From: Haloplanus vescus
Lineage (GTDB): Archaea; Halobacteriota; Halobacteria; Halobacteriales; Haloferacaceae
Assembly (NCBI RefSeq): GCF_900107665.1
Contig: NZ_FNQT01000003.1
Span: forward strand, 124,001 to 188,000
DNA length: 64,000 nt
Direction of reading: 5' to 3'
Shown one piece after another: positions 9,854 through 13,173 of this stretch (the first letter of the stretch is position 1; each line of letters starts with the position of its first letter). The notes beneath the pieces are model-generated. The model made no database searches and had not been told where the DNA came from. It saw nothing but the letters and a program-made list of their open reading frames with translations. A program made the position numbers and the translations under genes.

Positions 9854-10149
9854 CAGAAGTGGTACTGCTTGCCCTTTCGTTCCAGCAGCGACCCACGGTC
9901 CCACATCCGCCGCTCCCATGCCTCGAACTCGTCTTCGAGATACGGCAGGAGCTCCGCCGTGTAGTAGGACACGGGACTCGGGATGCCGAAGGCGTCGGGG
10001 AAACACGCGAGCATGAAGGTGTCCTCCCGGTCTTCGGCCTCCGCCTCGATTTTCTCGTAGGCCGGGTGCGTCACCATGCCGTGATACAGGCCACGGAGCC
10101 ACTCCTCGGCGACACGCCGGACGGTAGCGATGCGTTCCGCGAGGTCCAT
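9853..10149 (-). CDS. Small conserved protein coupled to the ArsA/Get3 ATPase
   Basis: A 98-residue mostly helical protein containing VAEEWLRGLYHGMVTHPAYEKIE, a central CFPDAFGIPSPVSYYTAELLPYLEDEFEAWERRMWDRG and a basic tail. No membrane segment or known motif. Its TGA shares one base with the ATG of the downstream ATPase gene, so co-translation and possibly a physical partnership are suggested. I do not recognise the family. ATG at 10149 was chosen over the one six codons earlier because it begins the conserved-looking helix. Confidence 0.7.
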   Translation of the reverse strand: MDLAERIATVRRVAEEWLRGLYHGMVTHPAYEKIEAEAEDREDTFMLACFPDAFGIPSPVSYYTAELLPYLEDEFEAWERRMWDRGSLLERKGKQYHF

Positions 10150-10275
10150 ACCTCGTCTCGCCGCCACGCGGAGAAAAACGTGTCGTCAGGGCCTATCGCC
10201 TGCGCGTGCCGGAACAGGCCTGCGGCGCGACCCTCTGTCCGCGGCGTTAAGTCCGTCCCCCGCCCATCCGGGCGT

Positions 10276-11484
10276 ATGCACGACGCCATTCCCGTCACGA
10301 TTCTGAGCGGGAGCCTCGGGGCCGGGAAGACGACGCTGCTCAATCACCTGCTCACCGACGCCGGAGACCGCGATATCGCCGTCCTCGTCAACGACATGGG
10401 CGACGTCAACGTCGACGCCGACCTCGTGAGTCAGAACACGGACCTCGCCGTCGACGACGGCGTGACGGAGCTATCCAACGGGTGTATCTGCTGTGAACTG
10501 CAGGACGACCTCGAAACCGCCGTCGTCCGCCTCGCCCGTGACCGCGACTTCGACCACCTCGTCGTCGAGGCGTCGGGCATCTCCGAACCCCGCCCCGTCG
10601 CCCGCCTGTTCACCACGGGGTCGCGCGCCGCCGCCCGCTACGAGGTGTCGTCGGTCGTCGCCGTCGTCGACGCCCGCCAGTTCCACGACGCCTTCGGCGA
10701 CGCGGGCGTCGCGACCCGCCGGGGCGACAGCGATTCGGACACCCGACCGCTCTCCGACCTCCTCGTCGAGGGCGTCGAGTTCGCCGACCTCGTCGTCCTC
10801 AACAAGACCGACCTCGTCACGGCCGCGGAGCTCGACGCCGTCGAGGAGATGGTGCGGACGCTCCGCCCCGACGCCGAGGTGGTCCGCACCGAACACAGCC
10901 GCGTCGACCCCGACACCGTCTTCCAGCGGCGGTACGACCCCGCGACGGCAGACGAAGCGGGCTGGAAGCAGACGCTGGCGGACGACGACGATTCGCACGA
11001 CCACGCCGACCACGACCACGCCCACCCCGAGACTGTCTACGGCGTCACCTCCTTCACCTACCGCCGACGCCGCCCCTTCCACCCGCGGCGCCTCTACACC
11101 GTCCTCGACGACCTGCCCACCGCCGTCGTGCGCTCGAAGGGCACCTGCTGGATAGCCACCGGCGCGGACCTCTCCTACACGCTGGCGCAGGCCGGCCCCT
11201 CGGTTCGAGTGGAGGCCGCCGGCCCGTGGGTCGCCAGCCTTCCCGAATTCGAACAGGACGCCTACCGGCGCAACCGCTCGGACCTCGACTGGGACGAGGA
11301 GTGGGGGGACCGCCGGACCGAACTCGTCGTCATCGGGCGCGAGATGGACGACGACGCGCTAATCGCGGCGCTCGACGACTGTTTGCTCACCGACGACGAG
11401 ATGGCCGCCGCGTGGGACGACTTCGAGAACCCATTTCCCACCGACGCGGGCAACGAACTCGTCGTGACCGAACCGACGCGTTAG
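10276..11484 (+). CDS. COG0523 (CobW/ZNG1-like) metal-chaperone GTPase
   Basis: A 402-residue G3E-family GTPase. The P-loop is SGSLGAGKTT (11-20), the metal-binding motif is CICC (Cys70, Cys72, Cys73), and NKTD is the guanine-specificity motif. A His/Asp-rich loop around residues 235-254 (DSHDHADHDHAHPE) is typical of zinc-handling members. The C-terminal CobW_C domain is present. These proteins deliver zinc or cobalt to client enzymes. No cobalamin or Zur-regulated genes are adjacent. ATG at 10276 follows a GTTAAG TATA-like element about 30 nt upstream, so the longer in-frame opening is rejected. Confidence 0.9.
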   Translation: MHDAIPVTILSGSLGAGKTTLLNHLLTDAGDRDIAVLVNDMGDVNVDADLVSQNTDLAVDDGVTELSNGCICCELQDDLETAVVRLARDRDFDHLVVEASGISEPRPVARLFTTGSRAAARYEVSSVVAVVDARQFHDAFGDAGVATRRGDSDSDTRPLSDLLVEGVEFADLVVLNKTDLVTAAELDAVEEMVRTLRPDAEVVRTEHSRVDPDTVFQRRYDPATADEAGWKQTLADDDDSHDHADHDHAHPETVYGVTSFTYRRRRPFHPRRLYTVLDDLPTAVVRSKGTCWIATGADLSYTLAQAGPSVRVEAAGPWVASLPEFEQDAYRRNRSDLDWDEEWGDRRTELVVIGREMDDDALIAALDDCLLTDDEMAAAWDDFENPFPTDAGNELVVTEPTR

Positions 11485-12594: not shown

Positions 12595-13173
12595 ATGCCG
12601 ACGGTGCGCGCCGACGTGGTCGGTGAAGAGACACAGGAGGTCAGCCTCGACGCCGACGCGACGTACGGCGACTTGCTCGCCGAACTCGACTTCAGCCCGC
12701 ACGAGGCGACGGTCCTCGTCGACGACTCGCCCGTGCCCGAGGACCGACGGGTCGACCACGACGAGGTGCGCATCCTCAGACTCGTGAAAGGCGGCGCCGT
12801 CGCCGACGGCGTATCCGTGCGCGCGGCGACGCCCGAGGACCACCTCGACGTGATGCGAATTCTCGACGGCGCGATGCTGGACGTGGACGCCGCGACGGTG
12901 CGCGACCGTATCGGGACCGGCGAGGTGTCGGTCGCGATTCTCGACGACCGAGTCGTCGGCGCCCTCGTCCGCGACGGCGACCGAGTGGCCGCGGTGGCGA
13001 CTCGGAAGCGTCGCCGCGGGCAGGGAGTCGGCACCGCGCTGGTGTCGGCCGCGGCCGCCGACCGGGACCGCCTCGTCGCCGAGTTCGACCCGCGGGTTCG
13101 ACCCTTCTACGAGTCGCTGGGCTTCGATATCGAGCCGATAGCGGGCAGTGACCGCCTCAGCGGGCGATTATAG
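12595..13173 (+). CDS. SAMP2-like ubiquitin-like domain fused to GNAT acetyltransferase
   Basis: Residues 1-67 form a beta-grasp small archaeal modifier domain closely resembling Haloferax SAMP2 (VVGEETQEVSLDADATYGDLL, FSPHEATVLVDDSPVPED). It ends in the diglycine KGG (Gly66-Gly67) that normally is the protein's C-terminus. There is no stop codon: the frame continues directly into a GNAT domain (about 73-190) with acetyl-CoA loop RGQGVGTAL (141-149) and the C-terminal RPFYESLGF signature. The Lys reported as the poly-SAMP2 chain site (Lys58 in Haloferax) is Arg59 here. Release of the modifier would need cleavage after GG, for example by a JAMM/MPN+ protease. Alternatively, the Ubl acts as a fixed domain. 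Confidence 0.85.
   Translation: MPTVRADVVGEETQEVSLDADATYGDLLAELDFSPHEATVLVDDSPVPEDRRVDHDEVRILRLVKGGAVADGVSVRAATPEDHLDVMRILDGAMLDVDAATVRDRIGTGEVSVAILDDRVVGALVRDGDRVAAVATRKRRRGQGVGTALVSAAAADRDRLVAEFDPRVRPFYESLGFDIEPIAGSDRLSGRL

Follow-up and report, generated by a model that had tools for sequence, protein, structure and literature searches.

The sole SAMP2 of the haloarchaeon Haloplanus vescus is encoded within the window (the 64,000-nucleotide stretch of DNA analysed here) as the N-terminal part of a longer protein, and we think it probable that this protein is a ubiquitin-precursor-like fusion which is matured by JAMM1 into SAMP2 ending in Gly-Gly and a free GNAT acetyltransferase. The primary product would be a precursor in which the cell's only copy of the modifier is linked through its C-terminal Gly-Gly to the enzyme encoded next to it in the operon of most haloarchaea. 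Cleavage after Gly67 by the metalloprotease JAMM1 would make the exposed C-terminal glycine of SAMP2 available for activation by the E1 enzyme UbaA (for conjugation and tRNA thiolation) and would free the GNAT in a 1:1 amount with SAMP2. Activation by UbaA requires a free Gly-Gly. As the sole SAMP2 runs on into the GNAT, the modifier would have to be freed before use, and the same argument has been given for SAMP1-MoaE (PMC4443979).

The fused open reading frame is confirmed as a genuine SAMP2 joined in frame to a predicted GNAT (Table 1). The preliminary description had reported a full-length SAMP2 match for the ubiquitin-like (Ubl) domain, followed after KGG by a GNAT domain without a stop, and both statements hold. 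The NCBIfam SAMP2 equivalog NF041919 aligns with residues 4-67 at 102.9 bits against a cut-off of 70, its last model position falling on Gly67, while Pfam SAMP2 (PF21965) matches residues 4-64 (E 3e-26; 91.9 bits against a cut-off of 27) and the solved H. volcanii SAMP2 structures align in phmmer with residues 4-67/68. In the primary product this Gly-Gly is internal rather than terminal. The GNAT region extends over approximately residues 73-192, with a Pfam Acetyltransf_7 match at 110-178 (37 bits against a cut-off of 27) and an R/QxxGxG-type motif in the form RRRGQGVGTAL, and a Foldseek search of the PDB with this part returned GNAT enzymes (best E about 1e-7, probability 1.00). An AlphaFold model built with the 12-species alignment (mean pLDDT 83) resolves into two folds, a beta-grasp and a GNAT, and its pLDDT falls below 50 only at Val-Lys-Gly-Gly (residues 64-67); the KGG segment, modelled with low confidence, is probably flexible.

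Table 1. Features of the SAMP2-GNAT gene (positions in the window)
Feature	Position	Strand	Basis or remarks
Fused ORF	12595-13173	+	ATG to TAG, 192 aa, internal stops 0
SAMP2 domain, residues 1-67, ending Lys65-Gly66-Gly67	12595..12795	+	Profile matches; residues 3-62 form beta-grasp strands and a helix in the model
KGG, predicted maturation/cleavage site after Gly67	12787..12795	+	Invariant in 12/12 species; pLDDT < 50 at residues 64-67
Variable linker AVADG after GG	12796..12810	+	5-15 aa across the genus; pN/pS 0.94
GNAT N-acetyltransferase domain, arCOG04721-like by neighbourhood	12811..13170	+	Pfam Acetyltransf_7/10/1; Foldseek
Stop codon TAG of the fused ORF	13171..13173	+	ORF reading

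SAMP2 junctions were read at 134 loci of haloarchaea where SAMP2 has the standard KGG-type end, and 28 more were inspected directly. A GNAT gene lies just downstream of SAMP2, or is fused to it, at 114 of the 134 loci, and at 26 of those 114 a peroxiredoxin either sits between the two or is itself fused to SAMP2. The SAMP2-GNAT neighbourhood of Halobacteria (arCOG00535-arCOG04721) was listed in 2010 by Makarova and Koonin (PMC2948915, Table 1). Separate genes are the usual state, and often an ATGA holds both the SAMP2 stop codon and the start of the following gene (e.g. L018, L025 and L075). In-frame fusions of at least 100 aa to a GNAT were found in all 12 Haloplanus and in one species of a second genus (g2; G108/L114), and those to a peroxiredoxin in Halorussus (g32, 7/7) and in genera g4 (3/3), g18 and g20; the loci with a peroxiredoxin in frame after KGG are L009, L010, L020, L021, L033, L035, L118, L119, L146, L167, L201 and L223. 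Many further haloarchaeal genera carry short tails of 1-12 aa beyond the Gly-Gly. Fused and unfused relatives are intermixed in two families, which makes several origins look likely, namely two fusion events for the GNAT and two or more for the peroxiredoxin. The Haloplanus fusion is a genus-wide trait and one among several independent-looking SAMP2 read-through fusions and short tails. The yeast peroxiredoxin Ahp1 is the classic target of Urm1 (PMC12625751).

Several other observations concern SAMP2 and its relatives. Five haloarchaeal genomes (G014, G187, G314, G317 and G346) have no detectable SAMP2, JAMM1 still being present in at least G014, and in G264 two equally scoring SAMP2 copies lie on contig C1 (at 3.3 kb and at 3.94 Mb), possibly through assembly overlap. 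The H. vescus genome encodes two other SAMP1/MoaD-like proteins, L056 (C6:69138-69401) and L057 (C1:1247381-1247644), with the ends PPVSGGRA and PPVAGGA; since both carry residues past the Gly-Gly, trimming would be needed there too. A ThiS-family protein (L058; C1:66956-67225) ends in Cys-Cys rather than Gly-Gly (YPFIFCC). Within the window, positions 9859-11484 hold an ORF that by eye is CobW/ZNG1-type GTPase-like, with a His/Asp-rich insert (DDDDSHDHADHDHAHPE), and is likely a metal chaperone.

All 12 sampled Haloplanus genomes, each of a different species, encode the full-length fusion at 65-74% identity. Lys65, Gly66 and Gly67 are invariant in the alignment while their codons vary synonymously, and the segment that follows varies both in length (5-15 aa) and in sequence. 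The pN/pS ratio is 0.94 for this linker, 0.38 for SAMP2 and 0.46 for the GNAT. An invariant KGG followed by an unconstrained segment is the pattern expected for a cleavage site and a free linker. A separate, unfused SAMP2 had been considered as a possibility that would count against the precursor reading; a profile search of the H. vescus genome gave no second SAMP2 above cut-off, and each Haloplanus genome has a single copy. The cognate E1 UbaA is present in H. vescus (L060, PF00899, 280 bits), and a search for plasmid relatives gave no match. The resemblance to ubiquitin precursors drawn in the preliminary description thereby gains comparative support from the invariant KGG, the unconstrained segment behind it and the single SAMP2.

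The H. vescus genome encodes two JAB proteins, the JAMM1-like L054 (HSHPESDPVPSATD) and the JAMM2-like L055 (HSHPNGVLRPSDAD), both with an intact canonical HSH-x7-S-x2-D motif. We searched for JAMM1 in the 159 genomes whose SAMP2 ends were known and found it in 69 of the 70 with a SAMP2 tail or fusion versus 58 of the 89 without. Viewed from the other side, SAMP2 ends exactly at Gly-Gly in 31 of the 32 genomes lacking JAMM1, the exception, and thus the lone tail- or fusion-bearing genome without a detected JAMM1, being a 79% complete Haloplanus MAG (G393). The association is significant by Fisher's test among genomes (P 1.8e-8) and among genera (P 8e-4), and it holds when an exact test is run with families as strata (P 0.003); phylogeny is only partially corrected for in this correlation. 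After the first 80 genomes we wrote down the prediction that JAMM1 would occur in the tail-bearing genera still unsearched, and it was found in all six such genera outside the family of H. vescus (G343, G389, G039, G010/G221, G218 and G021). That tails and fusions are essentially confined to JAMM1-bearing genomes points to JAMM1 as the cutter, and lends comparative support to the earlier prediction that a JAMM protease cleaves after the Gly-Gly. Counting against the assignment, 58 genomes have JAMM1 and no SAMP2 tail, so the main job of the protease is another one (desampylation). Of the 70 residues found directly after Gly-Gly, 56 are Ala, Ser or Thr and none is Pro, related species not being independent here, and the Ser share of this P1' bias could stem from a mutated stop codon.

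Work on characterized systems is in keeping with this assignment. HvJAMM1 cuts a linear SAMP1-MoaE fusion exactly after Gly-Gly in vitro and is required for SAMP1-MoaE cleavage in vivo (PMC4443979), CsJAMM cleaves SAMP precursors (PMC6043591), and P. furiosus JAMM1, as cited in PMC8832034, recognises SAMP2 regardless of its C-terminal partner. A literature search on the bacterial QbsE/JAMM precedent returned only unrelated matches.

Against this background we weighed the reading that the protein is stable and bifunctional, with the SAMP2 domain staying attached to target or regulate the acetyltransferase. Stable Ubl-domain proteins occur in eukaryotes, and the breadth of the SAMP2-GNAT neighbourhood (114/134 loci) makes a physical partnership plausible. 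We nevertheless consider this reading unlikely: it has no need of an invariant Gly-Gly beside an unconstrained linker, and it leaves unexplained why both the 1-12 aa tails and the fusions are restricted to JAMM1-bearing genomes. It would also leave the genome without a usable SAMP2 while UbaA is kept, a point which is inconclusive because UbaA serves other SAMPs too.

Also improbable is that the precursor is cut by another protease, either JAMM2 or a general one, and that the co-occurrence with JAMM1 reflects lineage history. In H. volcanii a part in the recycling of SAMP2 has been ascribed to JAMM2 (PMC4895103), the H. vescus genome encodes a JAMM2 as well, and the JAMM1 association is phylogenetically structured. 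However, the association survives stratification by family, and by profile search the genomes lacking JAMM1 keep a JAB protein. Leaving aside MAG G393, 24 of their 25 retrieved JAB loci type as JAMM2, with 60-81% identity to the H. vescus protein, and in the remaining one the motif is absent within the retrieved stretch. Since these genomes keep JAMM2 and, with the same exception, have no tails, JAMM2 alone does not accompany tails and is disfavoured as a sufficient processor. In addition, two Haloplanus carry a divergent JAMM1 rather than none (L229 in G391 and L231 in G281, which share only 38-47% identity with the genus type), suggesting that a foreign or divergent copy has taken the place of the original gene.

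It is very doubtful that the arrangement is merely leaky, with translation starting anew inside the gene to yield a separate GNAT and the SAMP2 part being a vestige. The H. vescus gene does have an in-frame GTG at residue 75; yet purifying selection on SAMP2 is at least as strong as that on the GNAT (pN/pS 0.38 versus 0.46), and in 6 of the 12 Haloplanus species the linker contains no ATG, GTG or TTG ahead of the first strand of the GNAT, so that an internal start is ruled out for half of the genus and hence as a general route. Finally, the chance that an assembly or sequencing error conceals a stop codon after the Gly-Gly, a concern raised in the preliminary description, is negligible, as the identical full-length fusion architecture in 12 separately assembled species rules it out.

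With regard to chain formation, it had been claimed that SAMP2 chains of the Lys58 type could not form on this protein because the lysine is replaced. Arg59 of the fusion does align with H. volcanii Lys58, and for Lys58-type chains the claim is right; what it misses is that the change is common and that Lys65 (equivalent to Lys64) is retained, so chains of other types may still form. At the 134 haloarchaeal loci the Lys58 position is occupied by Arg in 54, Thr in 36, Lys in 31, Gln in 7 and Glu in 6, and absence of the equivalent lysine is the rule in haloarchaea and not special to the fusion. In H. volcanii, SAMP2 can still be conjugated when both lysines are missing, but it no longer forms chains on NcsA (PMC4048286).

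The preliminary description had also raised the distribution of separate and fused SAMP2-GNAT genes in other haloarchaea, where we find mostly adjacent genes, with GNAT fusions in Haloplanus and the one g2 species. A broader proposal, to which we give even chances, is that haloarchaeal SAMP2 is widely a JAMM1-dependent precursor, that the SAMP2-(peroxiredoxin)-GNAT operon has repeatedly lost a stop codon so that the modifier is co-delivered with one of two enzymes of a SAMP2-linked pathway, and that JAMM1 acts in maturation in addition to its desampylase activity. Eukaryotic ubiquitin is made only as precursors that are cut by proteases. SAMP2 seems to be a prokaryotic case of this principle that arose more than once through loss of the stop codon between operon genes. 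The comparative signal names a protease and provides a genetic test of a JAMM1 role in maturation besides desampylation, for which the SAMP2 fusion offers a natural reporter substrate. It also ties SAMP2 to a conserved acetyltransferase and to a peroxiredoxin, the kind of protein that is the classic target of the related eukaryotic Urm1.

The class of architecture in which a Ubl is joined to an enzyme through Gly-Gly and matured by a JAMM protease is already known for MoaD-MoaE; what is new is that the Ubl is SAMP2, that it is joined to a GNAT or a peroxiredoxin, that the fusions recur and that they are associated with JAMM1. None of the papers searched was found to describe SAMP2 fused to a GNAT or to a peroxiredoxin. 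The neighbourhood listed in PMC2948915 comprises the same two families as adjacent genes, with no fusion described there. Like SAMP2-GNAT, the SAMP1/MoaD-MoaE fusions (HvJAMM1, DR0402) have an N-terminal beta-grasp Ubl joined via Gly-Gly to an enzyme, and their cleavage by JAMM exactly after the Gly-Gly is needed for function (PMC4443979, PMC8832034), whereas for SAMP2-GNAT such cleavage is predicted. They differ in that a Ubl of the MoaD type is joined to MoaE, the subunit with which it functions, in contrast to a SAMP2 of the ThiS/Urm1 type and a predicted acetyltransferase. In the Caldiarchaeum CsUb-pre/SAMP precursors the Gly-Gly is likewise followed by a removable tail, the protease being of the JAMM/Rpn11 family (PMC6043591), but that tail is a short peptide where SAMP2-GNAT has an enzyme. 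In the SAMP2-peroxiredoxin fusions of Halorussus and three other genera, the same SAMP2 continues in frame after KGG into the peroxiredoxin whose gene sits between SAMP2 and the GNAT in other species. The ubiquitin-ribosomal precursors UBA52 and RPS27A share with SAMP2-GNAT an in-frame N-terminal modifier ending at Gly-Gly, and equal release of both parts would be expected. The protease class and the partner differ, and ubiquitin has other genes too, whereas the SAMP2 of H. vescus is the sole copy; the likeness is one of analogy, with no shared origin of the architecture.
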